Assembly (NCBI RefSeq): GCF_037975245.1
Contig: NC_092574.1
Coordinates: 12,735,213 to 12,799,212 of the forward strand
Origin: Apostichopus japonicus
Taxonomy: Eukaryota; Echinodermata; Holothuroidea; Aspidochirotida; Stichopodidae
DNA: 64,000 nt
Reading direction: 5' to 3'
Part shown: positions 20,912-45,349 of the stretch, in pieces
Layout: each line of letters starts with the position of its first letter
How positions within the stretch are numbered: the stretch's first letter is position 1
Position numbers and translations under genes: made by a program
Notes under the pieces: generated by a model
Told to the model about the DNA's origin: nothing
Database searches by the model: none
The model's input: the letters and a program-made list of their open reading frames with translations, nothing else

Positions 20912-21148
20912 GTATCAAAGACTACGGAAGCTTGGATGCCCCCTACTGTTTTTTTCTTTAATCGTGGAACTACTATTCCGGAGTCATTTTCGGTTTCACT
21001 GAAGAAACTTGGTCTTCCTGTGGATCAAAAACTTGGATTTGATGCCCTAGATTTATTTTCAGGAGAATATATCGGATTCATGGACTCTTATGCGATGTTT
21101 AATTCCACTGTCAATCCTAGTGGTGTCCGACTCTTCCTTTTCGGCTGA
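20912..21148 (+). pseudogene. Inverted copy of GH27 terminal exon A3
   Basis: It copies the exon at 26988-27254 in the opposite orientation. The acceptor AG just before GTATCAAAG has become AC, so it can no longer be spliced at that point. Fifteen bases after the MRPT-equivalent codons are missing in frame, removing the conserved W-A-V strand. The end is shortened to FLFG before a stop. No exons for the catalytic core lie upstream on this strand, so it is treated as a dead copy. Confidence 0.85.
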
Positions 21149-21329
21149 AATAACGTGATTCCCACATAATTAAGTAAATACATATACTAACCCTTCACGG
21201 CTGCAAGCAGTGCTTGTCCGAGTTGCACTTTTATTAAGAACTGGCAACAAAACCAAATAAATATCATTGTATTTTGAAGACAATGATTATAATAATCCTA
21301 ATGGAAAAACAATACTGTATTTCTCTTAG

Positions 21330-21460
21330 ATAAAGGAAACCGAAGTTTGGTTGAAACATCTTCAAAGGTGGGATGAGTGGGCGATTGTCATGTTCAACAT
21401 GGGTTCGACGAAAGCCACCATTACGCTCCACCTACCGTGTGTATGCATGATGTCAGCTAA
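21330..21460 (+). pseudogene. Inverted copy of GH27 terminal exon A4, truncated
   Basis: The acceptor TTCTCTTAG and the first 40 or so codons match the exon at 26386-26640 (ETEVWLK then DEWAIVMFN). After ITLHLP the similarity ends: the second half of the domain is missing here and replaced by unrelated sequence. Not expected to yield a folded C-terminal domain. Confidence 0.8.
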
Positions 21461-21810
21461 GTTTCTTCTACTTCTGTATCAATCACACGTCTCGTTTAAA
21501 AATAAAAATGTATGAAACTTAATTTTAATGTTTCCTTTTTACCCATGTAGGGAGTGTGTCGGGGGGGGGGGTGGATACGGGGTAGAGTACATGTTTACAT
21601 GATATCATATCGACTAGCAGCTACACTTTTTGGATCATAAGAAAAGTAATTTTCAGCAGGTTATAATTGAATACATGACAAAATTATTATATTAATACAA
21701 AGAGGTAATACATTAAATCATGATTTAGCATACTGAACTGAAGAGCATGTAATATGGAGATGTTAAAAAAAAACATATCCCATTTCATTGAGGAAAAAAA
21801 GTTAACACAA

Positions 21811-21882
21811 TGATCCCGACGTGATTCGAACACGCAACCTTCTGATCTGGAGTCAGACGCGCTACCGTTGCGCCACAGGATC
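21811..21882 (-). tRNA. tRNA-Trp (anticodon CCA), copy 5
   Basis: Intact cloverleaf identical in plan to copy 1, with CCA anticodon and a seven-T terminator. Its 3' flank (ATGGAGATGTTAAA with CCCATTTCATTGAGG) is shared with the units at 16439 and 17222, so it derives from the tandem array at 15.5-17.3 kb. It lies between the left arm III and the right arm II. Confidence 0.97.
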
Positions 21883-23082
21883 ATATAGTAAACAACGGTA
21901 GAAGCATCATGTTTTCTACGTAACTAAAATAAAAGTTGCAACTATTCCGATGATTGCATCATCTGGATGTTTTATGACCTTCAACAGCCATTGGTGCAAA
22001 CATCCATGGTTGATACATGATTAAGTCTGTGAACGAATAGGTAAAAAACTCCCTATGCATCGAATCACTCTCAGACTAAGAAAGAGGGGTAAGAAGAGGG
22101 AATGGGACTTTTGCAGAGCAAGGCATATATACCTTGCCCATAGGGAGTACCATTCATATCGGTTTGTGTGTATGTGGAGGTAGTTTTACAAACTTACCGA
22201 TTGCATATTTCAGTGTTCCATAAAGGGAGAGGCATACATGGAGTATCAGTGGGAAAAAAATCCCCCCCCCCCTTTCCTATGCCAAGTAACCTATAACCGC
22301 TACTGTGCATTCACATCATGTATAGTTTAATGTTATTCGATTGAATTACTACAGATGCTCTAAAACTCGACTTTATTAAGTGATGATAAGTAAACGCAGG
22401 ACACAAGCATGGAGAGGGAATGGAGGGGGGGGTGTAACGTTTCTTCTTTTTACCAGTCTCTAAGATATCCACAAATAGGTTGCTGTATTTGAAGGAATGC
22501 TCCTTTCCAACCAAAACGGACGATGACGTGGGTTCCTCAGTTTAGCCCAATATTACTGTTATAATAAAAACTAAATTTTCCAGAAATATAACTTCGTATA
22601 AGCAATATATCACTCATGCACGAATGAAATCAAACACCATTTGAGACTAGCCAAATTTGTAATGAAATGCAAACATATTATTTCATATAAACATCGTATA
22701 TGTGTCCCTTGTTTTTTATTTTTTATTCTGAAGAGCTGACCTAATCGGACCCTGTGTGTTTGACTATAATACGTGACTTACGAGTCTTGTTTAAGTGCTT
22801 TGAAACTTTAAAGTATGAGGCACTTCCGTTATTATGTGGCATATACGTGGACATGACCATTAGTTTTTTTGATTTAACATATGTACTCTCGTATATTACT
22901 GGTAAAACTCATATTTTTGGACTTGGTGAACTTGTTCTGAATCGTTTTCATACTACAGTTACGTCAAGTGTACACCTGCAGTATCTAGCTTGGATGATGT
23001 AATCACCAACGTAATTGCAAGATACTAAGTTACATTTGGCTATACTAAATATAAGCAATATATTATATTCTACATATTATGA

Positions 23083-23154
23083 GATCCTGTGGCGCAACGG
23101 TAGCGCGTCTGACTCCAGATCAGAAGGTTGCGTGTTCGAATCACGTCGGGATCA
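23083..23154 (+). tRNA. tRNA-Trp (anticodon CCA), copy 6
   Basis: Intact 72-base cloverleaf starting GATCCTG and ending GGGATCA, CCA anticodon, T-run terminator (seven T, then CCCC and TTTT) just downstream. It occupies the same place in arm II right as the minus-strand tRNA at 19210 does in arm II left. Confidence 0.97.
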
Positions 23155-23989
23155 GCGGAAATTTTTTTCCCCTTTTTGAGACGTCTGTTGTCAGCAACAT
23201 TTCGAAAACAAATAGTTGAGAGAAGCCATGACTTTCACCCCAAAGTGCATCTTTATGTCATTTGCATATATATACTGTCACCAGTACAAGACCAGGCCTT
23301 GTAAGCATTAATTCATGTTATAATACACTACCAGTAAACTAACAGTTTGATATCCTATCCCCCCCACCCCCCCCCCCCTCGCTGCCCATCTGACCAGATC
23401 GCTTGTAGCATATCTGGTTCATTTTTGCAGATTGCGTATACAATTCAGGTATAGCCTGTATATAATTTTATTGCGCTTTTGAAATATTAATAACAATATA
23501 AATAATTAAATAGTATATCCCAAAGTCTCATAGTCCCTATAAATATATGATGTACGGTTAGAACACAGTGTTTATGTATTTGTATCTTAAATGTATATGC
23601 TTAAAGCTGTTGGTTACGTATCCCGCCTTTATAGTACATCAGTATATTTGTCTATAAGCATCTGTTCACTTTTCAAATTTATCATCATCACCATCAACGT
23701 AAATGAACCTAGTTTACATTTTACTTTATACATAAAAATATCACGGCAAGAGGTGCATGTTGTTTGGTGATTAGAATATAAAACTAATTGTTTATTTGTA
23801 TTGCAGAATTGGTATGGAGGGGGCGGGCGAGGAGAGACAGTGGTGTTCGTATACTGAATATTGACCTTATAAATTCTATGTAGGACCCGGTTCTGCTTCA
23901 ATTGAATCAATATTTCAACCGAGCTATGTGAATATGAGGAAAGGACATACATGTGTAATATAGAAAACCAACATTTGGAGAGTACTTAC

Positions 23990-24016
23990 CGCCACTCCGC
24001 CCGACCAATCCGCCAT
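23990..24016 (-). other. Inverted copy of ATG-to-donor segment
   Basis: Minus-strand counterpart of 18439-18465. ATG is followed by codons for ADWSGGVA and the donor GTAAGTAC. Three of nine codons differ from the left copy, without frame loss. Confidence 0.25.
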
Positions 24017-24589
24017 GACCAGTGATCGGTAGTCAACAGGCACACCAAACGCATAATTATCAGGAACTTAATTTGTGTGCCCAATATGAACAAAGTCTAC
24101 TTTGATATTTATGGTGCAAATGCATTATTTTAGATATGCTGGTTTGTGTGTGGGTGAGTGTTTGTGTGTCTGCGGTGGGGCGGGGTGGGGGCGCGGATGC
24201 ATGTTCTCAATTTGTAACAAATTTAGTTCATATTATATATACTTCTTAGAAGTACACTCAAGAATGGATAGGGGAGGGGAGGGGGAGTAGATATAATGTT
24301 TCTTCTTTGCACATGACCATTATTTTGTTTGATTTAACATAATGTACTCTCGTACATTACTGGTAACACTTATATTTTTGGACTTGGATGAACTTGTTCT
24401 GAGTCGTTTCGTTACTAAAGTTTTTTATGAGGTCATTTAATGAATAATTTACCTACATTAAGCGTGAACCTGCAGTATCTAGCTTGGATGATGCAATCAC
24501 CACCGTAATTGCAAGATATTTTAGAATTTACATTTAGGCTATACTAAATATAAGCAATATAAGTACAATATATTCTGTTGCATATAAGT

Positions 24590-24661
24590 GATCTCGTGGC
24601 GCAACGGTAGCGCGTCTGACTCCAGATCAGAAGGTTGCGTGTTCGAATCACGTCGGGATCA
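24590..24661 (+). tRNA. tRNA-Trp (anticodon CCA), copy 7
   Basis: Intact cloverleaf beginning GATCTCG, CCA anticodon, discriminator A, with TTTT shortly after. Its 5' flank repeats that of copy 4 at 19210 in reverse orientation. Its 3' flank (TGCCAGGAATGAAA with CATTCGTAT) is shared with copy 8 and with the 3' flank of copy 1. Confidence 0.97.
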
Positions 24662-25077
24662 TTCTTAAAACTTTTGCTGTTGCCAGGAATGAAAACGTTT
24701 ACATTCGTATGTTTTTTTGAGGATAAAAGTACGATATAATAAAGCCTCTGATTTGGGAAAGGGTATATAGGGCTCCTCTCTTATCTGTGAAGTGTACGTT
24801 TTCCTTTGGAACAAAAACCTTTTAAGTTTTTTACGTAAATTTGTATATGAACTCTAATACAATCAACTTCAAATCACATTGATTTCAAATGATTTTACCG
24901 GGCAAATGTTACAATTCCACGTAATATTGCTGCATCCCAATAGCAAAGCTGCTCTCTGTTTGCGTGTTTAGTTTTATGAATTAGTTATCTGGCAACAGCA
25001 CAGTCAGTGACATCGTCATGGAGGTAAAATAATTGTGTCAAAGTTTACAACGATGCCACTTCTTCTGTATTCTGTAT

Positions 25078-25377
25078 TCAATATTTTTTGTTGCAGTCAA
25101 TGTAAATACAGGATGATGTCCGTTTAATATGTTTAAACTTGGAGTAGAGTAGAAAGTGGAAGGGAATGGGTGGGGGCTGGGCACACTGTTACTCGGAACC
25201 ATGGGCTGTTATAGAGCACACATGAGCCAATTGGTGCTGGTATTATATCAGATTATTTCTTGGGTGACTAGTGGTCGAGATTTGCTGATCGATGTCCTCA
25301 TTCACTATACATCTTTAAGTCATGTGACTAAGATAATTCCTAAATGTATTACACATTGATCTTGTAAACGCTGACGA
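25078..25377 (-). repeat. Inverted duplication arm I, right
   Basis: Reverse-oriented partner of 17294-17600, forming the 5' flank of the tRNA-Trp at 25378. The match includes ACTCGG or its variant, GGCTGTTATAG, CAATTGGTGCTGG and GAGATTTGCTGATCGATG. Confidence 0.85.
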
Positions 25378-25449
25378 GATCTTGTGGCGCAACGGTAGCG
25401 CGTTTGACTCCAGATCAGAAGGTTGCGTGTTCGAATCACGTCGGGATCA
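25378..25449 (+). tRNA. tRNA-Trp (anticodon CCA), copy 8
   Basis: Cloverleaf with acceptor stem GATCTTG/CGGGATC (two G-U pairs) and one C-to-T change in the anticodon stem that keeps a G-U pair. The CCA anticodon and both internal promoter boxes are kept, and a seven-T terminator follows. Probably functional, but the weakest-paired member of the cluster. Confidence 0.92.
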
Positions 25450-26385
25450 TTGTATGAACTTTTTTTCTGATGCCAGGAATGAAACGTTTTCATTCGTATA
25501 ATTTTTGACAAAAAACGATAGAATAAAGCCTCGGATTTTTCATATTTCATTTCTTCCATTTTTGTTCTTAGTTTTCTAGTTTTAATTACTTAAATGATGT
25601 TCTTATGATGGTTGATATACCGGGCAAAGGACAGTGGGGGGGGGGGGCAGTGCTGCAAATTACCTCCTGTAGCAGCTCCACTTTACCACATATCAGACAC
25701 TTTTAAGGGAATGAATAATTCTTATTAAAAACATTTTTAAGTATAGCGGGTGTGTCGCAACAATAGAGAGACTATAATTCATTAACACCTGTAAGAAGGG
25801 ACATGGAAGAGATTGCCCACTACCTCTCTTTTGTTGAATGTGTATGAGGTGTGGGTAGGGGCTGAGGGGGGTGGGTAATTTTCGTATTTAAATTTAATTT
25901 CTAATACCAATTGTATTATTAAAAAAAAAAAACACTGGCCATCTTTTCAATACCGTAGCACGCCCATGTCGCCACAGACTAAGCGCATAATTTGTGTAAA
26001 ATTCTAAATGGACATACCAAAGAAGCAACAATAAGAAGAAAAGACTAAATATGGTCATACTTCGTGAGTTAATGTACTTCCTCTTTGTATTAACAAAATA
26101 ATTTTGATATATATTCTATTATAACCTGCTGAAATGATTTTCCTTATGAATCCGATATGATATCATATAAACATGTAGTCTACCCCGTTAGACCCACCCC
26201 CCCCCCCGCCCCCCCCCCCTCACACAGACACGCACCCTACATGGGTAAAAATGAAACATTAAAATTAGGTTTAATAACAGGTTATTAGTATTTAAACGAG
26301 ACGTGGGTTCATGAAGTATAGTAGAAAAAAATTAGCCGACACGTTAGCCTTGATCGATCAGTCGTTTACTATAATCACATGAGAT

Positions 26386-26640
26386 TTATTCACTAGGGTA
26401 AGCGTAAGCCATGAGGACGCCTGTTGCTGGTATAGTGTACTCCTTTTGCGTGAACCTCTCAACATGTCCAATTTCAACGTGTTTAAATAGGTCTCTCAGC
26501 TCATAGCCAAGCATGTAGTCAAAACCGATATCAGCTAGGCGGAGCGTAATGGTGGCATTCGTCGAACCCCTGTTGAACATGACAATCGCCCACTCATCCC
26601 AAAATTGAAGACGTTTCAACCAAACTTCGGTTTCCTTTAT
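26386..26640 (-). CDS. GH27 glycosidase, alternative terminal exon A4
   Basis: A TTTCTTTTAG acceptor precedes ATA AAG GAA ACC at 26640, and 84 codons run in phase 0 to TAA at 26386. The product has the layout of the GH27 C-terminal beta domain: EVWLKRL, then DEWAIVMFNRGS, a run of alternating hydrophobic residues, YELRDLF, and a last strand TGVLMAYAYPSE. The stop is embedded in GAATAAA, so the poly(A) signal overlaps the reading frame. It is the most distant (11.8 kb) of five candidate last exons that could follow exon 6 of the catalytic core. It diverges strongly from the other four. No evidence of transcription is available. Confidence 0.75.
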   Translation of the reverse strand: MKETEVWLKRLQFWDEWAIVMFNRGSTNATITLRLADIGFDYMLGYELRDLFKHVEIGHVERFTQKEYTIPATGVLMAYAYPSE

Positions 26641-26987
26641 CTAAAAGAAACACAGGATTTTTCGCCATTAGCATTCTAATCATTATTGTCTTAAATATAT
26701 TAATATATATTTGGTTTTGTTGCCAGCTCTTAATAAATGTGCACCTCGGGCAAGCACTGCAGCCATGCAGGGTTAGTATATGCATTTACTTACAGATGTG
26801 GGAATCACGTTACTTCAGCTGCAATAATCACACTATAGTGAGAAGCAAACACAACGACTGATGTTACGGGATTATTCATAAAGAAGTACTTTATCCTATG
26901 AGTGTATGATAATGATACGGAATATATGAAATGATTCCTTCATGCAAATGTAACTTTTTGTGTTATTCTGCAATATTCTAATATTAT

Positions 26988-27254
26988 TCATTTTGTTTCA
27001 GCAGGGCCGAAAAGGAAGAGTCGGACACCACTAGGATTGACAGTGGAATTAAAAATTGCATAAGAGTCCATGAATCCGATATATTCTCCTGAAAACAAAT
27101 CTAGGGCATCAAATCCAAGTTCTTGATCCACAGGAAGACCAAGTTTCTTCAGTGAAACCGAAAATGACTCCGGAATAGTAGTTCCACGATTAAAGAAGCA
27201 AACAGCCCAACGGCCGTCAGTAGGGCGCATCCAAGCTTCCGTAGTCTTTGATAC
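26988..27254 (-). CDS. GH27 glycosidase, alternative terminal exon A3
   Basis: The acceptor CTTTACTAG ends at 27255, and the exon then reads 88 codons in phase 0 to TGA at 26988. It encodes TTEAWMRP, WAVCFFNRG, SVSLKKLGLP, GFDALDLFSGEY and NPSGVRLFLFG, all placed as in the GH27 C-terminal domain. It is closest to A2 at 29591, which points to tandem exon duplication. A damaged copy lies in reverse at 20912. The acceptor and frame are intact here, so it is a plausible last exon joined to exon 6 at 38440. Confidence 0.78.
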   Translation of the reverse strand, partial: VSKTTEAWMRPTDGRWAVCFFNRGTTIPESFSVSLKKLGLPVDQELGFDALDLFSGEYIGFMDSYAIFNSTVNPSGVRLFLFGPAETK

Positions 27255-28025
27255 CTAGTAAAGGTTATAGGAGTGAGTATAAAGTTGTCATTTATCTAAT
27301 AAAAATCGGTCTTTCTTAATTTAATCCTTTCTTTTCCATCACATTTCTGAGCATGGTATGTGATGACATATATTGCAAGTTATTTCTTCACAGAGTTCAC
27401 GATATACATGGATATTATTAATGCTTACAGATTTTTACAAGGTATTTGCAAAGCTTATAAGACAAATGAGGATAAACGACTGGTAAGGTCTGGAAATGAA
27501 ATCTGACACGATACGTTGGTTGTCTAAGAGGTCGATTTGATTGATGTACAGTACGTGTCAATTGTGCATACGGCGACGTAGGTGTATTATATGCGGATGT
27601 TCCGTTAATCATGTCACGAAATGATTGTTGAAGAAAAGTGACGGTTTTCTCTTTATGGTGATTTTTATTTTGCGTTGGGGGAGGGGGGGGGGGGTTGGTT
27701 GTTAGTTTGAAACAATAAATCTCAGAACGTATGATCTCTCTACCCATTAAATGTCACCGGTTATTTACCGGTAGTTCGAGGATAATTCTCGGAAACGAAA
27801 ACGAAGAGGTCCGGGTACGAGCTAAAGTCATGGAACCACGATGACCCCAGGGATTACTCGCAAACTTGACGTTTGCTTGCAAGAACCTTAACAAGGAGAC
27901 ATACATGTTAATCTCAAAACAATACAGTTCGATTGTCTCTGGTTGTCTTAGATCAGACGAGGAGTATAATAGTAATAAACCCCTACAGAGATGATTAATT
28001 TTGCTTGTCAACGTTAGTCTTCTTT

Positions 28026-29590
28026 ACTTCTCGACCCCTTCGAATCCCTCACCGACCTCCCCCCCCCCCCCCCCACCATCACCCACCCATTTCAACAGGT
28101 CTTCCACTTTTGTACCGATGTCACACATTGGTATAGCATACGTAATTCAATTGTAAGCATAATTCTCAAATACTGAGGAAGGTGAACCCCACCCCGCATT
28201 CATCCTCATTGTACTACAGCTATGGTGAACGAATTTGTTCGAAACCATTGAAAGAACAGACAAACCAACTAGCAAACCAGAAATATCAAATCCACGGCAG
28301 ACTCCGCTCAACTAAACTGCAAAGCAGCGATTTAATTCATATCTCCTAAAGTCTTGTAGTCCTGAATAAGCTACTCACTCCTAAAATTTGTTTTGAGGCG
28401 CAACAGACAATCTTGATATGTCAATAATTTGTCGTGTCACTAAATAAATTGGAAGGTGGATATATGTCTGCTTGTGTGTCGGAAGCTAAATTGAAACACA
28501 ATCAGTTATGTTATCAAAGCAATGTAATTGGAGAGGTGCGGTGTGTAGTGTATACCGTTTGTAGTGTAGGGAGGGACGTGTGGTACGGAGGTGTGGTGTT
28601 AAATCTGCCCTAAAAAATATAAGACGGAGAGAATTGTGAATAAAACACTTCAAAACGATATGTGTATCGCAATAATAATCAAGTTTTATTTACTGCAATT
28701 TACATACGTAGAAATATCTTTTAATCCATAACCATATAATCCATCATCATGACGCGATTCTGTGTATACCAGAGACTCTTGCAGTAGCGTGCTGTTTTAT
28801 TATAGAGCTTGTATTACAAATAAAGAAATACCCAATACCAGGCAAAGATGAGAAATCAAAACTAAGGAATAGCGAAGAGAAATAACAGTTAATCTTATCT
28901 TTCATAAGTTGACAAGATAACTTCATTTTACGTAATGAAGCAATGACTTTAAACAATTAGTATATACTTTCAGTTTACTCATAACACACGAATTACGTAT
29001 ACGATGTGGACAGAGATTAAATGAATTTTAAATGCCTGTGTATGTCTACTGGGTATTATAAGGTAGTACTATACTATGTGCTTTGTAATCACAATATTGT
29101 AATAAAGTTACTTTCTAAGCTTAACTTCGCGGGCTTTGCTTTCTCATGTGACATTTTTATATCACGTGAAATACTATGAATGATGTGGTTTGAAGTATAG
29201 TTACCATCTTCAAGTGACTCTTATCTGAGTTGATCAGTCATTGTAAGTCAAACGAGGAACAAAGTCAATATTCCGCCGATCACAGTATCCGGACAAGTGA
29301 GTACTGTATGTAAATTGGTAGACTGCGGCTGATTAATCTGAGAATGCAGCTAACTTCAATTTGCTCCACAATGGATACATATAGTCCATGTTTTATACCT
29401 GCAACTTGAAACATAACATACGCCGCAGTGTACGATAACCCTCTCGTGCCCCTTCCCCTAGAATTTAACTTGACCATGTCTTCTGTGCTAATACGCACTA
29501 CAACCTAGCTACATGACTAGAAAGCGATGAGGTCTGCTGCCCAGACAAGTAAGACTATACGATTAAACTGACGTAAGACAACCAGCTGCT
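28026..29590. other. Stretch without a supported gene
   Basis: Between terminal exons A3 and A2. It opens with a C-rich patch near 28060-28075. No further domain exon or RNA gene was recognised. Confidence 0.4.
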
Positions 29591-29851
29591 TTATTCAGCC
29601 ATGCCAAACCGAAGGAAAGTTACGCCATTCGGGGCTACCGTACAATTGAATATTGCGTCGGGTGTCATGTAACCATAATATTTCCCGGTAAAGAGATCTA
29701 GGGCGTCGAACCCTTCCACTTTTTTCGTTGGAAGTTTAAGTTTATCTAATGAAACGGAGATTTCAGCAGAAGTCGAGGGGTCTCGGTTGAGAAAAGAGAC
29801 TGCCCAGTGATCACTTATAGGTCGCATCCAGGCTTCCGTTGTATTCGAAAT
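29591..29851 (-). CDS. GH27 glycosidase, alternative terminal exon A2
   Basis: TTTTCATCAG precedes ATT TCG AAT ACA at 29851, then 86 codons run in phase 0 to TAA at 29591. The peptide contains TTEAWMRPISDHWAVSFLNR, SVSLDKLKLP, GFDALDLFTGKYYGYM and APNGVTFLRFGMAE, a complete GH27 C-terminal domain. The stop codon lies within AATAAA (29595-29590). If that signal is used, the 3' UTR would be only a few tens of bases. It sits 8.6 kb beyond the exon 6 donor. Confidence 0.78.
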   Translation of the reverse strand: MSNTTEAWMRPISDHWAVSFLNRDPSTSAEISVSLDKLKLPTKKVEGFDALDLFTGKYYGYMTPDAIFNCTVAPNGVTFLRFGMAE

Positions 29852-30062
29852 CTGATGAAAAGTTGAAATAACGAGCAAAGAAACCAGATTACACCTATAA
29901 ACACTTTCCAAACTATACAATAAAGTAGATTCCGAGTTAACATTGATACATTTTGCGAAACTTCTATCCTCAGATTGTAAAAAGAAGAGTTAGGCCTATC
30001 CCTTGCCCTTACGAGGATATGCCTACGTAGCCTATTTTCATTTTGTTTCTATCGCCTTTAAA

Positions 30063-30317
30063 CAGGCGTGGATCCAGGGGTATGGGGGTTTACCCCGCCC
30101 CGCCTTTCTTCAAAAATAAAATAAAGCAGTTACTATGTATAGCACAATCTTGCGTGTGCACTTTAGTGTAATTATAAATATGCCTCACGTAACATCTAAA
30201 ATTTCAATTGTTTCTGGTGGAGGATCGCCACCCCCCCCCCAACCACCACCAACACATGGGGCGCAGCTTCGACGATCATGCACATCCCTGCTGATTTAAA
30301 TCCTGGATCCGATCCTG
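30063..30317. mobile_element. Possible non-autonomous DNA transposon
   Basis: The ends CAGGCGTGGATCCAGG and CCTGGATCCGATCCTG can be read as imperfect terminal inverted repeats around 255 bases of non-coding sequence with a C tract. No matching target-site duplication was found, so the call rests on the ends only. Confidence 0.45.
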
Positions 30318-30425
30318 ATGACCGTCCACTTTCAAATGTGTGACCAAAAGAGAAGCTCGTGACGAACAGTTCAACAACTTGCGTGTTGAAAATGAAAGTT
30401 CTTTCATCTATTCTTACCTACCCTG

Positions 30426-30793
30426 CAAGGGCGTAGGAACCGGGGGGCTGGGGGGCGCCAGCCCCCCAGTGAAAAATGTGGAGGGGCGGAAGTATCATTC
30501 CGCCCCCCCCCCCCGGTTCGCAAGTCAAAAAACCCCTTTTTCATTTCCAAATGAGAAAAAACAATCTCATTTGGAGCACCAAATTGCATCTAAGGCCAGG
30601 TAAAAATACAAAATTAGGTTAACAAAATGGAGTGGGTGTTGAAGTGTGCTATATTGCACTAAATTGCATCTGAGGCCACCTGGAAATGCAAAAAATTCCA
30701 AAGGGGAGGGGGACACCCCCTCCCCTTAGACCCCTCCCCAGGCTGGCCATCAGTCTTCAGCCCCCCACTCAAAAGTACCTTCCTACGCCAGTG
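30426..30793. mobile_element. Non-autonomous hAT-like element, copy 1
   Basis: It begins CAAGGGCGTAGGAACCGG and ends TTCCTACGCCAGTG, and is flanked by a perfect 8-base duplication CTACCCTG (30418-30425 and 30794-30801). Length is 368 bases, with no transposase frame and long C/G tracts inside. The ends match those of the larger element at 41361-42127 (CAAGGGCG, then GGAACCGGGGG), so both belong to one family. Confidence 0.9.
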
Positions 30794-31550
30794 CTACCCT
30801 GTCTACAAAAAAACATGACATAATTTGAAGCTGTCGCAGACGCATTACCTAGGCTACCAAGCAGGTACAGGTTCACCAACTGTGACCAGTTTATAGTTTA
30901 TCTTGGGCCAGTGAAGAACCCTTTTTCTGCGAATGAACGACCATACTTGAACGCCATGAACCATTACTATATGGTGCTCATAATTGTAATGCTAGAGAAA
31001 CAAAATGCTGTAAAACAGAATCTCAATTGAAATAGCGCGATCCTCGCTTCATTGTTTAATGTTTTGTTTTTTAAAAGTTGTCTATGCTTGTGCACATTGA
31101 ATCGGCTAATTTCATATTTAAGCAGCATAAAGACCCTTATGTTGTGTGAAATATCAGCTGAGAGAGAAAGCAAACGCATGAAGAAGAATTCATTAGAAGT
31201 GGCAGAAGGCAGCATTTTATTTTAGCATGCATGTTATTAGTGAAAAATTATCCTACTGACCCGAAATATCATAGCGTCCTAAAATTGTTGCACTTACGAA
31301 ATACCTTAAATGACATCAGTGTCTCAAATCATAGCATATTTCAAAAAAAGTGTGAAAGTTGAAGTTCCACCGTTATCATTCAGATGCAACACTTTCTTCA
31401 AACATGTGTGTAGGCCTACGATATAATTGAAGGTCGATCAGAATTTGTTACAAAGTGGAAGTATGTTCCCTAGTCTACGTCGTACCAGCGAAAGTTGTAA
31501 GCAGTATACCCTTCTCTTATAACTCCTCCCACCTTTTGAGATACAAGTGT

Positions 31551-31823
31551 TCAAAAACGACCGTGACGTAGTTCACTAGGGTAAAGATGCAATAACCTGC
31601 ACCCTTCTGGTGGTACGAGGATGCTGAACTTATCATCAGTCGAGAAATCCATGAAATCTTTATTTATGAAAATATCTTGCACATCATATATCCCTGTTGC
31701 TATGCCGAGTGATCCCATTTGGACGGTTACATTCTTCGGCATTCCATAATCGTCTTCGTTTAAAAACGCTACTGCATATTCATAACTCTGAAGGGTTTTC
31801 ATCCAGACCTGAACTTTACCAAT
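31551..31823 (-). CDS. GH27 glycosidase, alternative terminal exon A1
   Basis: CTGCTTTCCAG is a strong acceptor before ATT GGT AAA GTT at 31823, and 90 codons run in phase 0 to TGA at 31551. The domain pattern is kept: VQVWMKTL, YEYAVAFLNEDD, NVTVQMGSLGI, YDVQDIF and VPPEGCRLLHLYPSE. Its ending LYPSE resembles the human NAGA strand ending and the A4 end. It is the first extra last exon beyond the ordinary one at 35816 and is as divergent from it as human family members are from each other, so the array is not just a recent copy error. Confidence 0.78.
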   Translation of the reverse strand: MGKVQVWMKTLQSYEYAVAFLNEDDYGMPKNVTVQMGSLGIATGIYDVQDIFINKDFMDFSTDDKFSILVPPEGCRLLHLYPSELRHGRF

Positions 31824-34800
31824 CTGGAAAGCAGAGAAGGAAACCACGATACTCACTCTGTGTGTGTCTGATCCTTGGGTGGAAATATTGGTTCCCATCG
31901 GGTTATTTTATCCATTTATGATTTTTACCAAGCCCATCACTAAAATAGCTAGCCTATATAAACTATTTTTTTGACTGATATTTACGGCTAAAATCTGCAG
32001 TTATAACAGACTGAACCGTAAAAGCAAAGCCCACGTACCATTAAGGCCATGGACCGAAAGTTCTGCAAAACTGATGAAGTTTTAGTCATAAAGTTTGCAT
32101 ATGACACAAAACAATATCTTTCATTCGTAGGACACATTTTGTTTTGGTAGTGGATTAAACGATTAATAACCACAAAATAGACACATTGTAACTACATATA
32201 TCTCTTAGTCTAACGTAGAGTGACGGTAGTTTAATTATGTGTAAATATTACATGGTTTGGTCAGATTGACATGAAATTACGTCCTAAGTGCAAGCCGTAG
32301 CTGTAAAGGTCTACTGACACCTAGCATGTTCAGTAATTTGTTGTGTGTGATAATCTCATTCAAAATCTGTTTAAATAATTGTTTCGAAAAGCTCTTTTCG
32401 TTTCCAAGATATATACATTTGAAGTTTTGATAAATCTGGGAAACTCATTAAATATGTGCAAACAATGACGTAGAGTGTTGGGCTCATCAATATTTCTTAG
32501 TTTAGCCCTTAATAAGTTAACCCTAATTATATCAACCCCACATACTGTGATGAATATTGTGATGCTCCTCTTTTCATAGAAGAACAATTAAATATTTCCA
32601 AAAGTCGCCTTAGGCCAAGAACCTTTCTTCAGTGTCCTTGAAACGAAGGTTGTAAAAACGAAAGGATTAATGTAACAGAAAATTAGGCAGTCACTCCCTT
32701 TAAATCATCAATGTGCATAATAAGCTAATGTCTATTCATAAAACTAGAACCGAGAAGAGACTTGTAAAATGGTCAATCTTTGATGGAGTTTGATGGGAGT
32801 TGCAGGTTTTTTCATGATTTCTAATGCCAATTAGAATGATTAGGACAATGTTGTTCCTAGCTGGTGTCCGTAGAACTTTAAAGATTACAGCGTAGCTTGA
32901 TGTGAATTTATTTATAACAAAGATGGGGTAACGGAGACATTGGAATCTTAAACGGGACCGATAACCAAAACTGCTAATACATGTGCGATTACTGGCCAGG
33001 AGAGAATTAAGCCTAAGCCTAAGCTAATAAATTGCTTCTTATATTGAAGTATATATTGTACATGGACCATTGTACTGACAGTGTTTCCACCTCACTTTAG
33101 CCTTCGAAAGATACAATTGGTTCAAAATACATTGTAGTGATGGGTTATGCATTATAATAGAACGCAAGGTGAAGGTCTAGAGTTGAAGGACGAGAAGTGG
33201 GTGGGTTCAAGCGGATTTGAAATGTCGTTTTCAGTTTAGTTCAATGGTTTACTTACGGTATTCCTTAACTTTGTTTTATCACACTTTACCATTTACACGG
33301 ATGTTCGCCCCGCTACATGCCAAGATAAATGGTATCCAGTGAAGTCGCGTGACAGTCCTATGAGATTAACGTTATTGTATTGATCAATAAATTTAACTTA
33401 AGTATGGAAGGGTAATCTACACGCATCATCGTGTTGTTCATGAACATTAACTCCAGGATAAACACACCTGTGGAATGTTGAACTTACGTTGAACTTACAC
33501 AAATTAGATTTAAACTGCTTAGAGATATATTGTTTCAAACAACAGAGGACGAACAAGATGGACGGGACTGATCAAAGCTGTAAATGCAATGATTGTTTGA
33601 AATGAAGGTAAATAATGCGAAGATAACGAGGCGAATGTTAGCTGCAACAGTAAATGCACCATGACACACGTTCACACTGCAGATATAAACGCAGCATAAG
33701 TTTGAGTAGTCCACATGCATTCACCAACAATGTCGCGGTAAGGCGCATCTCCGTGGCAATCAGAGATAGTTGAACTATATATAACATAGAATGGTATTCT
33801 TTTTCATTTGATTGTAACACAGGGTAAATAGTTCTGAAGCATTCATAGATAAAGAGAGATGGGAGAAGGGGGGAGGGGGGGGGGGGTGAGATGGTGGCCA
33901 ACAGGGTGCACTTTTCAAGAGTACTGTCCTAGAGATCCTGGCCCTTTAACTATTCCCAGACATAGAGGAACTTTGAAGTAGATAAGATTTCTCCGAAATG
34001 CAAAATGCACTGAAGTGAGCCATAAATTGTCCCACATTAGTGACAGTTGACTTTCTAGCATATTTGGTGACCATACTGGTGCCTTTTAAAAATGCATAGC
34101 AATGGCAAAAGCAGAAAAGTTAATGGACATTAGTATTGCTGCCTACTTTAGTATGCAAAAAAAACTGCTAAAAGTTTTCAAAGTATCTTTATGGAGGTTC
34201 CAACCCTCCAGATTATACCAAGATAATGAGGTGTTTTAATTGACAATTAATGGGAAATGGTTCGAAGAGAGCAGTAAAAAATTTTCTTGAATGTGTAACA
34301 TTATTTAACTTGTCTAGCATATGTGTGATGATTATTTAACTTGTCTAGCATATTTGGGGCTGAAATTATGGCATTAGATGAGCATTCACATGTAAATTAC
34401 TCTCAATCTAAAAAGGCCAAAATAGAGAAATAAACATAAGTAGATATTGTGAAACATCATCAGCATTTATTATTAATGTCACTGTCTGCTTATACATAAC
34501 CCACAATGTTTCCTCTACTGCAATTAAAATAGATGCAACTGTTATACAGCCATCTGGATAACACAGCAACCTTTTTTAAGTACCGAAGCAGCTTAAAATT
34601 ACACATAACCCATTTTTGCAATAAGTCTTTAACCATTGTCATGGTAATTTAATCAGGAATGACAATACTTCATATATCCATTCCACCAAGCCTCCCCCTC
34701 CCTTTGAGAAATCATTACTGACTGACTAGTGTCCCATTCAATGTTTGGAATTGAAGACAGATGTGAAACATCATTCACACTTACCCTTTGAGGGTACCTG

Positions 34801-35815
34801 GATGGGACGAGAATATTTTTAGTTCTTTTCTAGTACATTTAGTCAATTTTCCTATTTAAAAATCAAGTATCACATAGTTTTTTATCACATTCATGATTGA
34901 TGAAAACACAAGAAGCAAATTATTTTTGTAATAGTGCAACGAATTCAGGCTATTCTAAGATTAAAAAACAACTGTAGAAAAGATATTGAAAGACATATTA
35001 GCAAGGAAATACATTATTCATTGTAATGAATCTTAACAGTCTCAATAGCTGGTTATCTTTATAAGACACACAAAAAAAGAAAAGAAAGATGAACACTTGC
35101 TACAAGGCAAAACCTGCCGAAAGTTAAAGGGCTTCACCCTGATGAAAGATTATTCAAAATACTGCTCCTTTAAACTCTGAAATACCTTCCCTACAAACTT
35201 TGATCAAACTTTTACACCTTCAAGAAAATATTAACACATTGATACCATTGTGGTTATTTAAAGACCAAATCTTCTTGCTTAATTCATTATTTTTTTTTTC
35301 TTCCTATTGTCCTTATTATTCTTCATGAATATTTATTCAATATGACAATACCATACTTCAGAAACATATTCAGATGAAGGTTTGTAACACACCAATGCTT
35401 GTCAATGTTTTCATATTTCGTAAAGGCATACAATCTTAAGTATTTGAATACAATATTTTGAGCTGGAACTGAGAAAGCATTCTCTACCTAGCACTTTAAA
35501 ATTTACAAATGCATTATTGCCCCCTATGATGAGAACTACTCCAGGACTTATAGAGGGCAGTATTTGCAAATGATGATCAATGTACAGTAGGTCAGGTATA
35601 GGTTGATAGGCTACAGTATCTATCACATAGATATGTCACATACAATGTATTAGACAAATGTTAAGGCACTCTCAAAGGGAAAAGCTACAATTCCAGTTTG
35701 ACCAAAATCACAGCTTACTTTTAATACCATTAGTGCAAAATACAAAGAATTGATTTGGAAATTTTTTTCAAAGTACATAAAAAAAAAATCGCCCGCCACA
35801 AACAAAGTTTTAGGA
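31824..35815. other. Stretch without a supported gene
   Basis: Between terminal exon A1 and the ordinary last exon. No domain exon, RNA gene or clear element was found. It holds a G tract near 33870-33885, an AATAAA on minus at 35337-35332 that could serve the ordinary last exon, and ordinary AT-rich sequence. Confidence 0.4.
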
Positions 35816-38800
35816 TTAAATGGTCACACTAGCTTTAAGAAGGACAGCACCATTGGGTGGTACCTTGACAACCAAGGGGTGATCGACATCAATTAACCCC
35901 CAGTAGACTCCTGTGTACAAATCCACAATGTGGTATGCCTTGTAGCCAGTGACTTGCAGTTGTGTTAGCGTGGTATTGACATAGATGGCAAGCTTTATGT
36001 TACGGCTGACAAAGGCTACAGCGTAAGCGTCCATTGACAGTGGGCGGGTCCATGCTTCAATAAGGACATTTTTGGTGGTATTCTGTACGTGGAGATGAAA
36101 TGTAAGGTGATTGATACAGTGCTCAATGAGGAGAGGTGAATGTACTTTGAGAGACAGAAACAAATCTAGACTGAGTGTAATTTACAGATTCTGTGCATTG
36201 ATTAAAGTAGCTGTTGAGTATAAACATGCATCTAATAGACATTGGTATTATGGGAAGGAAAATTTTAAAGACTAAAGCGAGAGAGAGAGAGAGAGTTATT
36301 CATTACTTCTAATTAATATTGGTGTAGCGTTAATGATGTATGGTTGTGTCTTAGAGTCACCAATTGCTATCTCACTCCACAAAATCTTGGGTGAACTTGG
36401 TGGATATTTGGTGATCGAGTGCAACCAGCAAGTCAAAAGAAGGGGGGGGGGTGCCTTTCACAAAATTACACCAGAGGCAAAATGATAATCATCGGCATGA
36501 TGTCAGTAAGGCTTATTAGGTGTTCCTTGAAAACTTTAATTTACAAAAAGACTAGTAGATAAAGTATTGGGAGAGAACCAGATGCTTGAATGGAGGCAAT
36601 GTGGTGTAGGACAATTTATACATCTTTCTCATGATGTTGCAGCCTTCAACTTAAAGGGTGTCAATACTTTAGTATGGGACATTAATCCATTGATTTTGTT
36701 GTCCTGTGCCATGAACAAAATAGATTTGAAGGCTGGCATCTTATTTAGAGGAATATATGTCCTGCTACTATTCAAATCACAATATCCTGTAAACTCAGGG
36801 TCATCTAGGAGTCCTCTCCAGTCTGTAAACTGCTTTGATATGGTTTTTTAACTAATGCCAATATTAAAAGGTGGGCCTGATTTGAATTTAACCTTAATTT
36901 ACAAGCTAGGTTTCAGTTCCGGTGGTATAACTTTGATTTAATGTGATTCTATTTTTAAATAACTTGCGTAAAACTAGTGTATTTCTACTCATTCCATTTT
37001 GTGTTTGGGTTTTTATGTTAATAAGAGAAGAAATTAAATAATCAACAGATTTATCGTTTCAAGTTTTTGGGCTTCAGTCTCTAAATGTTTGACTGGTGAA
37101 ACAAACACTCTACTGTCATTGAAGGTTGACGGTAGTTTTAGGGGAGACCACTTGATCCTCTCAAGAGTAGGAATGGGTTGGGATTTGGTTAGGGTAGACC
37201 ATCTCTAGATTAGGAATGGGTCAGAGATTTGGGTAGGGTAGACCCTCTCTAGATTAGGAATGGGTCAGAGATCTGGGAATGGTAGACTCTCTCTAGATTA
37301 GGAATGGGTCAGAGATTTGGGTAGGGTAGACCCTCTCTAGATTAGGAATGGGTGGGAGATTTGGGAAGGGTAGGCTCTCTAGATTAGGAATGGGTCAGAG
37401 ATTAGGGAGGGATAGGAGGACTTGTACAGTGTCAAAGGTCATCACATTGTTTTAGACAGAGGTAGAGAGAAATATAGAGAGAATAAAAGAAAGCAAATGT
37501 GTTAGACTTTGCTAACTTTCAGAAAGCATATATCTAAATCTATGCGAAACAAAGTGAGGATGGCTGCAATGCTGAAGTTAACATGAAATGTGAAAGACTA
37601 CGAAGATTGTGAGTTTTTGTCCCAATATTAGTTCTGTAACTAGTGAAAGGTGAATGAAAATGCTGCCAAAGCACATGAATATGCAATAGTCATTACTATG
37701 TTATATGACCCATATTTAATACAAATGCAGAATAAAGGAGAAAAATTGGGTACTGGTAACACTGGGCGCCCTTGCAGAATAAAATCTCACCTTTCGCACA
37801 TTGAGGTCAGTTACCAATGACCTTTCGATATGAAAAGGCTATTATCCCAAAAATGATGTCAGATGAAACTAAATGACCTGTATGGTTTGTTTTAGCCTTT
37901 CATTTTGCATCATACATTTAATTATATATATCAGGCAGATTTGCTTGTTACGATACCTTTAAGATCTATGTCTCTTTTGGTTCCAATTTCAACTTTAACT
38001 TTACTTGAATTTGAGTAGCATCTTGGGCTTACATAAAGAAAGGCATAAAACTGACTTTTTCCACACCACAGCTTCTCCACTCTCAATCCTCCCCCCCCCC
38101 AACCCCCTCCCCTATCTGCAATTGGAGGAGTCCATATTCAAATCTTACGGGAAACACAGACTTAAAATTGTGGCTTTTCTTTAGTCTACAAGGCGGGAAA
38201 TAACATCATTTTAACCAATAACCGGTTTTGTAACAGACAGTAGTGGAAATTGAGTTGAGCTTATGATCAGCATTCCTCCCTTTGTAGTATTCCATTCCAA
38301 TCCGATCTTTTGCAAATTAGAATATTATTTACTGCTCAAATACTCTTGAAATGAATGCTTTTCTTCGGCATAAACTCAGGTGCAACTGTTTATTTTTCTT
38401 CCTTCAATTCAAATCAAAACAAAAAAATGTTCCACTGACCTGCAAAACTCTTTTCCCCATAATGCCGAGGGGGTCCTGGTTGACCTGGATCACTTCCTTA
38501 TTGAGGAGAATCTCACGAAACTCTGGAGATATGGTCCTGAGGTCGTTGGACATAAGGAGGGGGGCAGCTAGTATAGCCCACATTGCCATCTGTGCTTGGG
38601 ATTGGGAAACACTCAGCGAGTAATCTCCAATAATCAGCTTGTGATGAAAAACGGAGCATACCATTAATTAATCAATAGATCGATCAATCGTTAGAAGCTT
38701 GGGAGATAATATCCCATAATCAGTTTAGAATGAAAAACAGAACATGTCACTGATCAATTGAAAGATCAATCAATTGGTAGACGAACACTCAGTGAATAAT

Positions 38801-41800
38801 CTCCAATAATCAGCTAAGAATGAACAAAAATATATATCATTAATCAATCAATAGACTAAAATTTATCACTGAATATTCAATAACCCTATGAAGCTGAACT
38901 TTTGTACATAAGAAGCTACCATTAAGACAATAGAATAAACTACAGACTCAACCATTAAAACAAACTGAATGTATTTCCTTTACTGTTCAATCCAAAATGT
39001 AATTTCTCATCAGGTCTAATCCATTGTTACAGATGCTTACCAGTACACTCAAACAATTTAAGAAGTTACCTTTTTTTTTAATTTACTTTAGCTTACTTGA
39101 CATATCTGAATGAGCACTACATTATAACATACTATAATGTCCAGTGATACCTTTATTAATGTTTTCACTGATTTTGCAAACGTTTCTGTCATTGCAATAC
39201 AGATTACATTACTTAACCCTGATTCATATGGCTGATTAAACCCTGATTCATAAGGCTGCTTGAAACCCTGATTTGTGAGGCTGCTTGAAATCCTGATTCT
39301 GGTTTTAATAGGTGACTGTATTAAACTATTGTTCATATAGACTGGAATATCCCAGAGAATGCTGTTAACCACAGAGTTTCAGTACAACTAGAGATGGGAT
39401 CATCCATTAATTATCATTCACTAGTGGAAACAACTGTTTTGATAGCAGTCCAAGACTGACTCATAACAATCACATCGTGCGTGACACTGGGACAGCCAAA
39501 GTACAGAGCAACTCAACGAGTCAAAGTTTAAGAGAGTAACTATAGCTCTTACCATGTCAGGATCGGAAAAGTTTCCAGGTCCGACCACCGGCCCCCATTG
39601 ATCTGTGATATTGGCCTGGTAGTCAATGATCTTGAGTACACTGTCCCATGAATCTTGTATATCCACAAAGTTCCTCCAAATGTTACAGTGAGATGCAACA
39701 GACTGGTAGTCTATCTGTAGAACAAGGAAAGACCAAGCTAAAAATTACTTCTTGTCTTGGCGGAAGACTTGATGAACGAACGCATGAGATAATTAATTGC
39801 ATGAGCGATGATTTAAACAGTCTAACAGAGTGTAAACACCAGTATCGTTATATGATACATGAACTATCCTTCATCCACAACATGACAACAGTGTGTATTG
39901 TATATGTGAACAAGACAGTGAGTATCAGAGATCAGGTTTCACTTACTAGCAGAATTGGAGATGTTCTAGATTACTGGTATATACAGGAAGGTGTTAGAGA
40001 TGCTCTATCCAGATTAAATCCCTCACCCCAACCTCACCCCTCCCCCCTCTTCCCTATCAGTACATTGGATGAGATATGGTTAATGCTATTCAGTATCTAG
40101 TCATGTGATTGACAGGCAGGCTCACGCACTTACAAACTTAAAAGTATTAATAGCCTTTCCAAGGGATTGCTGAAGCTTCCAGTCTAGAAAACCTTTGTTC
40201 AAAGTGCCATGTCAAGATTTCACTTGTTTTCATCTCTGATTTTCCAGCCCCCCCGCCCCCCTAGCTCTATTAGAACCAACCGAGATCTTTCAGTTGTTAC
40301 ATGTTAGATTTGAGATCAGCTGTGGTTACTGTTTTTAGAGTTGTTGTGTTAACAAGACAAGAGCATCAGAGACAAAAATGAGCTTGAATGAAATGATTTA
40401 CTGGAGTAACCAAAATGAAAGAGTATCTGAAAGCAGAAATAAAAACTGGAAGGAATCAAATGGAGGTACCAACCGGGATGCCTTTGCCTCTCTCATAATC
40501 AGGCCAACTGCAGGAGAAGAGGATGGGACGGCCAGTGGCATTCAGATATTGTCCCATCTCTGGATAACCTGTGGGTAGGAAGTTAAGATTTCAAGCTTGT
40601 AGTAAATGAAGCATAGGTGACCCATCGGATTCAAATCAAATTGGAGGCTTAATACATCACAGCAGTCTCCATCAGAGTGCATGTTAGGATATCATAAAAC
40701 TTACTGGTTTAGATATTTACGACTGACGAGCTTACCTGTCTCCTCACAACCTTAGCACCTCATTCTACCGTGCCTAATATGCCCTGGCAATCTTTTAACA
40801 CTGTGCACCCTCAACATAAAGGTAAATTAACTTTGAATACTTATCCATATTATTTCATGGAGGGTTACCTTTCTTCATTAATGAGATATCTACGTTGCAG
40901 CCATCCATCTTAAACATATCAATTCCCCACTCGGCAAATCTGTTGGCATCTTTCTCCAAGTAATTTAAGCTCCCAGGATAACCAGCACAAGTCTTACTTC
41001 CAAAGTCACCATAGATACCCAGCTTCAGCCCTTTCTTGTGCATCTGTAATGGGTGAGGATACGTTTCATTTAAAGTATTAATAGAAATATAATGAGTACA
41101 TTGATGACAAATTCAATGAACAATCAAGAAAATTGACCAATTTCTAATTTGAGGACTTAAAAATAATCTAAGAATAACACCCCACAGTCAACCAATTAAA
41201 TTACTGCTAACAAGGGAAATGTAAACCAGTAAAAGTCACTTAGTGGTACAGTTTATATGTGCAGATATAGCCCTCAGCAGTACTGCTTATATGTACAGAT
41301 ACAGCCCTCAGTATTACTGCTTATATGTACAGATACAGCCCTCAGTGGTACTGCTACATGCAAGGGCGGCGGAACCGGGGGGGGCACAGGGGGCACGTGC
41401 CCCCCCACTTTTCCTCAGGTTAAAAATGTGCCCTTTTTCTACATAAAAATTTCTAAATAAAAAAAGAGTTTACAAAGCGAAACCCACGTCAAATTAAATA
41501 TTTCGGGAAGTTTTAAATGTTTACTACCATAGGCAAAGGAGCCCAATTTGATTTGGGGGGGCTGTAACGACTTGCCCGAATAATATTATCCAAATTTTTC
41601 GCGCGCGTTTAACATGTTAATGTGCATATCATATAGGCATGCAAAGGTTATTACATCGCATGCCAATAACATACAATCATGTGCCGTGTTATTACACTTC
41701 CATATTGGTTAGAATTATTGGGAAAGTCGTTACAATAATAATGATCATAATAATATCAGTTTAACCATTCAAAAACACATAACCCTACCCCATCCTTTCG

Positions 41801-44800: not shown

Positions 44801-45349
44801 TAGCTGGACATGAAAAGTTCTGTAAAATATATATTTTGCTACATTACTCACCTGCGAGTGGTTTTTGCAGCATGGTAGTGTTGGGGAAGAGTAGGGGAGG
44901 GGGGGGGGGGGTGGGAGAATAAGTATCACCCATATACAGTAGCATTTTACAAAGGAATCTCCACAACTTTGTTTCTATTCCCAAACAAGTGACTACTATA
45001 GTGTTTTAACTCTTCGGTAAATTCAGTCATTGTTCAGTCATCTTGTATGAGTTAAAAATGACAGCCATATTTTATAGCAGATCAGAGTATTTGGTAGATC
45101 AGATCAAGTTTGATTACTCTTGCTTGTAGATTTCAATGGATTTTCTAAATATTATTGAATATCTCTTGTCTTTAACACGGATTGTTACCTTATACAACTA
45201 TCTGGATGGTTATCACAATCTGTATTGCAGCGGAAACGCTCCCACGAGAGCCATCCCATCGGTGGAGTACGAGCCAGGCCATTCTGGAGACCATAAGCCA
45301 GGGTGGTAAAGCAAACAAATACAATGGCTTGCTGGATCAAAGACTTCAT
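35816..45349 (-). CDS. NAGA: GH27 alpha-N-acetylgalactosaminidase/alpha-galactosidase
   Basis: Seven coding exons, all phase-consistent: 45349-45189, 44524-44350, 41043-40869, 40568-40474, 39714-39553, 38637-38440, 36082-35816. They encode 410 residues (human NAGA has 411). The enzyme removes terminal alpha-linked GalNAc or galactose from glycans in lysosomes or as a secreted protein. Residues 1-20 look like a signal peptide, followed by [14 protein letters not shown]. Asp159 in KMDGC is the expected nucleophile and Asp220 in WRNFVDIQ the acid/base. The substrate loop reads SCSWPDY (Ser191, Asp194). NAGA has Ser and Ala at these places, alpha-galactosidase A has Glu and Leu, so Ser supports the NAGA type but Asp is unusual. 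Residues 323-410 (last exon) form the C-terminal beta domain. ATG at 45349 was chosen because CTTTCAACAG gives an acceptor seven bases upstream, which excludes the in-frame ATG at 45466. Four extra last exons lie downstream. Confidence 0.93.
36270..36296. repeat. GA microsatellite
   Basis: A short run of GAGAGA units in intron 6 of the GH27 gene, close to the last-exon acceptor. Confidence 0.8.
37143..37420. repeat. 44-base minisatellite in intron 6
   Basis: About six copies of a 44-base unit with the core CTCTAGATTAGGAATGGGTC and GGGTAGGGTAGACC. The outer copies are degenerate. It lies between exon 6 and the ordinary last exon, the interval whose splicing would decide between last exons. 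Confidence 0.9.
38608..38870. repeat. Partial tandem copies of the exon 6 start
   Basis: An approximately 88-base unit spanning the intron 5 acceptor and about 30 bases of exon 6 is present three times. The true acceptor ends at 38638. The most upstream copy (exon-like start at 38813) keeps CTGATTATTGGAGATTA in frame and has a TTCATTCTTAG acceptor that looks better than the real one. The middle copy near 38730 is degenerate. AATCAATC-type filler separates the copies. Confidence 0.85.
39214..39300. repeat. 24-base tandem repeat in intron 5
   Basis: Three to four copies of ACCCTGATTCATAAGGCTG with small changes. On minus this keeps a short frame open, which is not taken as coding. Confidence 0.8.
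41253..41356. repeat. 34-base tandem repeat in intron 2
   Basis: Three copies of TATATGTACAGATACAGCCC followed by TCAGTGGTACTGCT or a variant. The hAT-like element at 41361 is inserted at the edge of the third copy. Confidence 0.85.
41361..42127. mobile_element. Non-autonomous hAT-like element, copy 2
   Basis: It begins CAAGGGCGGCGGAACCGGGG and ends TTCCGCCGCCCTTG, giving a 14-base perfect terminal inverted repeat, and is flanked by a perfect 8-base duplication GCTACATG (41353-41360 and 42128-42135). Length is 767 bases; no transposase frame was seen. It lies in intron 2 of the GH27 gene. Its perfect duplication suggests a fairly recent insertion. Confidence 0.92.
42375..42465 (-). mobile_element. 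tRNA-derived SINE head
   Basis: On minus it contains ATGGTTCTAATCCCGTCCC in B-box position, ending in CAGCCAAG, with a degenerate GTGCTAGTTTGTTGAAC A-box part. It resembles the fragments at 52955-53035 and 57602-57680. Confidence 0.55.

Follow-up and report, generated by a model that had tools for sequence, protein, structure and literature searches.

Can a single glycosidase gene join one catalytic barrel to any of several C-terminal domains? The question is raised by a locus of the sea cucumber Apostichopus japonicus, which lies within a stretch of 64,000 nucleotides (contig NC_092574.1, positions 12,735,213 to 12,799,212 of the forward strand; the window, whose own numbering is used below unless stated otherwise). 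Here six exons encode the catalytic core of a GH27 enzyme, and five terminal exons, T1 to T5, each encode a C-terminal beta domain, or tail. An earlier reading of the letters of this DNA (the sequence-only reading) had claimed one barrel joined to five tails by choice of the last exon. On the basis of the gene architecture, isoform records and a phylogeny of the tails, we propose that the locus is one NAGA-type GH27 gene whose five last exons form an array of alternatives, and we put the probability of this reading at about 0.83. The exons are as follows, tail classes A to D being those of the tail tree described below.

45189..45349, minus strand: exon 1, 161 nt; ATG, signal peptide-like start, GT donor; protein identical to record P0003
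44350..44524, minus strand: exon 2, 175 nt; AG/GT; phase 2
40869..41043, minus strand: exon 3, 175 nt; AG/GT; nucleophile motif KMDGC
40474..40568, minus strand: exon 4, 95 nt; AG/GT; recognition loop SCSWPDY
39553..39714, minus strand: exon 5, 162 nt; AG/GT; acid/base motif DPDM
38440..38637, minus strand: exon 6, the last constant exon, 198 nt; AG/GT; ends in phase 0
35816..36082, minus strand: T1, terminal exon, 88 aa; acceptor, phase 0, stop; Melibiase_C 31.8 bits; class A (weakly supported)
31551..31823, minus strand: T2, terminal exon, 90 aa; acceptor, phase 0, stop; Melibiase_C 46.6 bits; class B
29591..29851, minus strand: T3, terminal exon, 86 aa; acceptor, phase 0, stop; Melibiase_C 37.5 bits; class D
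26988..27254, minus strand: T4, terminal exon, 88 aa; acceptor, phase 0, stop; Melibiase_C 35.5 bits; class D
26386..26640, minus strand: T5, terminal exon, 84 aa; acceptor, phase 0, stop; Melibiase_C 37.9 bits; class C

All five terminal exons possess an AG acceptor, contain no internal stop and end with a stop codon of their own, and all lie above the Pfam cut-off of 22.9 bits for Melibiase_C (PF17801), the alpha-galactosidase C-terminal beta-sandwich domain. They are found with E <=1e-34 by a profile built from these same five exons and with E <=6e-24 by a 54-tail profile that includes them, and chance resemblance to the tail domain is excluded. The positions that the sequence-only reading had assigned to exon 6 and the five terminal exons on the minus strand are correct to the base, and its description of each as a complete C-terminal domain of 84-90 aa with acceptor, phase 0 and own stop applies to all five. 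Pairwise identity among the tails is 18-29% in the 54-tail alignment, except for T3 and T4 (56%), and four positions are invariant. The reading frames of T4 and T5 start exactly at their own acceptors and are therefore readable only after splicing. T2 to T5 were also considered as stand-alone small genes and rejected: in T4 and T5 the frame starts no earlier than the acceptor, in T1 and T3 it contains no Met before that point, and for T2, with one upstream Met in frame, a stand-alone gene was judged unlikely.

The core (exons 1-6, 45349-38440, minus strand) has GT..AG introns throughout and a coding sequence of 966 nt for 322 aa. When this 322-aa core was searched against the window with tblastn, each exon was matched once, apart from a 10-codon fragment of the exon 6 start in intron 5 (38813-38784, minus strand) and an 11-residue match at chance level (E 4.4), in agreement with the earlier claim that the window holds no further copies of exons 1-6. 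The core joined to T1 (P0003) scores 452.8 bits for the barrel family PF16499 (Melibiase_2) and 30.0 bits for PF17801. Comparisons were made among 121 proteins, representing the best 120 of 7742 matches to the sea cucumber query in a database clustered at 90%. Asp159 and Asp255, placed as nucleophile and acid/base by the motifs KMDGC and DPDM, are invariant in 40 aligned proteins chosen from the 121 (the divergent P0093 lies outside that alignment); the roles of the two Asp residues in GH27 are given in the consulted part of PMC7918333. For the NAGA subtype, the text consulted in PMC5445309 names the Ser and Ala of the loop SCSWPAY. A. japonicus has SCSWPDY, in which the Ser is kept and Asp replaces the Ala of human and chicken NAGA; a GalNAc-recognising subtype is putative for this enzyme. 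The same Asp occurs in 32 of the 33 records from echinoderms and acorn worms, and Ala in all seven from amphioxus.

Might the extra tails be owned by a second gene whose exons 1-6 had been missed? We searched the whole assembly (671.6 Mb, 35 contigs) and obtained 11 PF16499 matches at just two loci, namely the window gene and C14:26087771-26092070. This second GH27 locus lies on the same contig, which could be taken to favour such an owner; direct support for it was not found. It is 13.3 Mb away, carries GLA-type loop letters (CEWPH), and has a matching exon plan of its own together with its own tail; T2, moreover, is recorded on the window core. With the tail profile, no further tail was detected in 29.4 kb at the GLA-type paralogue, which has a single tail, nor in the 9.9 kb preceding the window. 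Genome-wide, PF17801 gave five matches, corresponding to T1, T2, T4, T5 and the paralogue tail, and none elsewhere, a census that is a lower bound because T3 and the broken copies described below fall beneath the sensitivity of the search. A hidden second core is ruled out at the sensitivity of the whole-genome barrel search, which found no gene of the kind that the sequence-only reading had allowed for, and ownership of the tails by a second gene is close to refuted.

Protein records connect the core directly to two of the tails. P0003, an A. japonicus 'alpha-N-acetylgalactosaminidase-like isoform X3', equals the core plus T1 (100% over 410 aa), and P0004, 'isoform X2', equals the core plus T2 with one differing core residue at the exon 4/5 join. 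At this join (40474 / 39714) X2 has Val and X3 has Ile; the Val is explained by a donor and an acceptor each moved by 4 nt with the frame kept. For T3, the record comes from Holothuria leucospilota, whose P0005 joins its own core to the T3 orthologue (tail 79% identical to T3, core 250/303, 83%).

We then defined multi-tail pairs among the 121 proteins as those with cores >93% identical and tails <75% identical; all are echinoderm or amphioxus, and the two A. japonicus records are one of them. The crinoid Antedon mediterranea has five records with five tails, 22-59% identical, on a core identical at 322/322 positions. The brittle star Amphiura filiformis has seven records with six tails, and its core is identical within each of two exon 3 versions. 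Two records each, with differing tails and cores identical at 318/318 positions, are present for Asterias rubens, Asterias amurensis and Patiria miniata. Branchiostoma floridae contributes a pair (core 296/301), as do two records of an amphioxus hybrid (core 344/344, tails 38% identical). The remaining pairs are between species, such as Diadema setosum/antillarum (core 299/303) and Lytechinus variegatus/pictus (core 302/303, the L. pictus record being truncated). No multi-tail pair was found in arthropods, molluscs, vertebrates, sponges or a cnidarian; since the set consists of the best 120 of 7742 matches in a database clustered at 90%, this does not demonstrate absence outside echinoderms and amphioxus. 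The two Amphiura exon 3 versions (P0007/P0008/P0024 and P0010/P0026/P0029/P0034; cores 301/320 identical) concern the exon that carries the nucleophile motif, the core being otherwise the same, and are apparently mutually exclusive exons inside the catalytic barrel that are combined with different tails. Neither version, used as query, revealed a second exon 3 in the window.

Several points here weigh against the five-exon array. No A. japonicus protein with T3, T4 or T5 was found among database proteins of about 191-717 aa, and no species yielded an independent record of T4. Furthermore, the isoform records in all likelihood represent computed models, and names of the 'isoform X' kind would fit artefacts of automatic prediction in which unrelated tail exons are strung to the nearest core. 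Against such an artefact, the same architecture and orthologous tails recur across echinoderm classes, and P0028, a sea-star-like record of a core with a class C tail, stems from a contig of just 2205 bases, a length that makes a spliced transcript probable; we regard this explanation as very unlikely. Of the claim of the sequence-only reading that one barrel is used with five tails, the architecture stands, as do the records for T1 and T2 and the multi-tail records of other echinoderms, whereas for T3, T4 and T5 we found no protein record in that size range to back their use in A. japonicus.

How old are the tails? We aligned the five window tails with 49 from the 121 proteins (87 columns), leaving out P0003, P0004, P0010 and P0075, whose tails are identical to included ones, the truncated P0025, and others that were not chosen. 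In the resulting tree most tails cluster with others of their kind, not with those of their own species. Class C (support 100/99) unites T5 with two Antedon, two Amphiura and nine sea-star tails including P0028; class D (99/99) comprises T3, T4, Holothuria and Amphiura X7; class B (97/86) contains T2, Antedon X1 and Amphiura X5; and class A brings together T1, Amphiura, sea urchins, the second sea-star core and Antedon X3. Approximately unbiased (AU) tests reject one clade of tails per species, with p=2.1e-6 in the case of A. japonicus, 4.7e-5 for Antedon and 2.9e-9 for Amphiura; the sets follow from species, although the tree had been seen beforehand. Lineage-specific expansion of the tails is thereby rejected in these three. 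Pairwise identities mostly point the same way. T5 shares 51% of its residues with an Antedon tail and 49% with an Asterias tail, against no more than 29% with any other tail of its own genome; for T2 the best identity is 44% versus at most 27% within its genome, and for T1 39% to an Amphiura tail versus at most 29%.

Antedon is a crinoid, and A. japonicus and Amphiura belong to the Eleutherozoa. Members of classes B and C occur on both sides, and these two classes at least therefore predate the split and were probably present, judging from the tree, in the last common ancestor of living echinoderms. The crinoid/eleutherozoan split dates back roughly 480 million years or more. Not every part of the tree favours this age. 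The alignment columns are few (87-88). Class A is supported at 92/85 with 42 tails and at 86/81 with 54, and with the GLA-type tail added it is neither recovered nor rejected (p=0.49); T1 is also 36% identical to a shrimp tail and 35% to a Drosophila tail. Diadema antillarum joins class B at 96/92 with 42 tails and at only 76/48 and 79/50 once rows are added. In this set class D lacks crinoids, sea urchins and sea stars, and Antedon X2 falls outside every class. Given its 36% identity to the shrimp tail, T1 may represent the least changed kind. The amphioxus tails were rejected as orthologues of the echinoderm classes: five of six rows form their own group (95/82 in the 54-tail tree), and part at least of the amphioxus set is therefore separate.

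In sea stars, P0018, P0021 and P0022 seem to represent one gene with class A-like tails, and P0027-P0037 another core with several class C tails, an arrangement in which the array is apparently divided between genes. Asterias rubens P0093 has a third, divergent core (206 of 318-324 identical) with the loop NCKWPNE and a class C tail.

Taken together, the comparisons lead us to favour, with less confidence than the array itself, a combinatorial glycosidase in which orthologous, functionally distinct tails have been kept since before the crinoid/eleutherozoan split and are selected on one core by choice of the last exon. The tail set would have been reshuffled since that ancestor by duplication, by loss and, in sea stars, by apparent division between genes. 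If this holds, one gene yields an isoenzyme family with the same active site and different assembly, sorting or partners, and in Amphiura the two alternative exon 3s enlarge the isoform set further.

For the proposed array, exon 6 would be spliced in cis to one of the five acceptors and the transcript cleaved behind the chosen exon, so that each transcript would encode the shared catalytic barrel and one of five complete C-terminal beta domains. T3 to T5 would be spliced to the same core in A. japonicus, and the choice may depend on how terminal-exon splicing and 3' end formation compete. A scan for polyadenylation (poly(A)) hexamers within 500 nt of the terminal exons detected AATAAA or ATTAAA 90-490 nt behind the stops of T1 and T2, these being raw matches without a shuffled control, and two hexamers that overlap stop codons.

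29590..29595, minus strand: AATAAA overlapping the T3 stop (hexamer scan)
26385..26390, minus strand: AATAAA overlapping the T5 stop (hexamer scan)

Behind T4, neither AATAAA nor ATTAAA occurs before T5, 348 nt downstream, a finding that speaks against the array; T4 might share the 3' end site of T5. Alternatively, the tails could be trans-spliced from separate short transcripts onto the core. Such a route can draw on analogy with mod(mdg4) in flies, and is most improbable, as no tail is more than 12.3 kb from exon 6, all five share its strand and nothing demands trans-splicing.

What could five tails change in an enzyme with one barrel? An AlphaFold model of the T2 isoform (40-row alignment) has a mean predicted local distance difference test (pLDDT) score of 91.9; residues 321-400 have block means of 90-97, whereas the end scores poorly. 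Its best structural matches are chicken NAGA, human NAGA and human GLA, and its template modelling (TM) score against chicken NAGA is 0.95 when normalised by the target and 0.90 by the query. The exon 6/tail junction falls at residue 322, inside the first strands of the C-terminal domain or shortly ahead of them. T5 modelled alone (5-row alignment) reaches a pLDDT of 90.6, and all 34 structure matches to this model with E<=0.001 are alpha-galactosidases, alpha-N-acetylgalactosaminidases or beta-L-arabinopyranosidases. The tails contain one or two sequons each, at mostly different positions. Because the shared barrel contains both the catalytic Asp residues and the active-site residues listed for the family in the consulted part of PMC5445309, neither the choice of the bond to be cut nor recognition of the sugar should depend on the tails. 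The properties left to depend on the tail would be dimer contacts, stability, glycan sites and partners; in the proposed mechanism, what differs from tail to tail would be the oligomer state, stability or sorting of the enzyme, or its protein partners. The sequence-only reading had suggested that the domain could tune partner choice, substrate access or stability.

As a rule, enzyme families diversify when entire genes are duplicated. Selection seems here to have retained a single barrel while multiplying nothing but the domain that packs on it, and to have done so over a very long span if our reading of the tail classes is right. GLA and NAGA genes of vertebrates and other animals have the same barrel and the same C-terminal beta domain, and to our knowledge carry a single tail; the 198-nt exon 6 and the domain-wide last exon match human GLA exons 6 and 7. 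In Drosophila, lola and mod(mdg4) attach one of several terminal exons, which code for a folded domain, to a common 5' part. These are transcription factors with DNA-binding tails, whereas the sea cucumber gene encodes a secreted or lysosomal-type glycosidase with a structural beta-domain tail. The variable first exons of UGT1, in turn, have their own promoters. Vertebrate UGT1 and GCNT2 are described, in the part of PMC1885805 consulted, as multiple-variable-first-exon clusters in which a constant enzyme part is joined to one of several tandem variable exons that evolve by birth and death. There, however, the variable exons come first and in UGT1 code for the acceptor-binding half; in the sea cucumber they come last and code for a non-catalytic C-terminal domain, so that the selector must be splicing or 3' end choice. 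By analogy of gene plan, UGT1 is the nearest enzyme counterpart. Alternative last exons are hence a known kind, and their use for a glycosidase C-terminal domain looks new: as the sequence-only reading had supposed for GH27, no published description of such a tail array was found among the papers listed by searches of 5.39 million open papers, subscription papers being mostly outside the scope of that search.

Two echinoderm GH27 forms, I and II, offer a further comparison. According to the consulted part of the study describing them, II is a monomer and I a multimer, and the two forms are also unlike in stability and alpha-galactosidase activity, a difference that its authors ascribe to the barrel and not to the tail. 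The N-terminal 20 residues reported for form II are those of the Asterias multi-tail core (P0027, P0031-P0033) and also of Acanthaster P0022, which has a class A-like tail. The loop reported for it, SGSAPAY, occurs in none of the 121 proteins, and form II as the product of a multi-tail gene is a lead only. Isoenzymes that share a barrel and carry tails 22-59% identical lend themselves to direct comparison and amount to a natural experiment on the GH27 C-terminal domain, the same domain as in human GLA and NAGA, the enzymes of Fabry and Schindler disease.

Could T3, T4 and T5 be ancestral relics that are no longer spliced, with only T1 and T2 used in A. japonicus? The missing records for these three tails and the lack of a canonical poly(A) hexamer between T4 and T5 are compatible with this view, and tail decay does happen at the locus. 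Two broken tail copies, absent from the sequence-only reading, lie in an inverted duplication of about 20.1-21.9 kb versus 25.4-28.0 kb, the ungapped arms of which are 79-99% complementary.

20912..21145, plus strand: broken T4 copy within the inverted duplication; acceptor AG lost, internal deletion
21330..21434, plus strand: truncated T5 copy within the same inverted duplication

These copies exemplify a tail that is no longer kept. Unlike them, T3 to T5 retain frame, acceptor, stop and domain score. T3 is conserved versus Holothuria about as well as the core and is joined to the core there, and Antedon, Amphiura and sea stars have cores that carry tails of the T5 class. A comparison of dN/dS among the five exons, which had been suggested earlier, is informative for T3 and T4: 84% of synonymous but 27% of nonsynonymous sites differ, given as raw proportions and not as a ratio because synonymous divergence (dS) is saturated for most tail pairs. 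On the coding sequence, this contrast is the pattern of kept coding exons. We thus consider it unlikely that T3 to T5 are relics, and the array of five usable last exons remains our preferred reading. It would also suggest that automatic annotation misses coding exons, as the search of A. japonicus protein records did not find three of the intact tails. The broken copies themselves are young and hold little information on selection: T4 and its copy differ at 5% of synonymous and 2% of nonsynonymous sites, and T5 and its truncated copy show no synonymous and seven nonsynonymous changes over 35 codons. Eight tRNA-Trp (CCA) genes occupy window positions 15577-25449, adjoining the inverted duplication and extending into it; five are on the minus and three on the plus strand.

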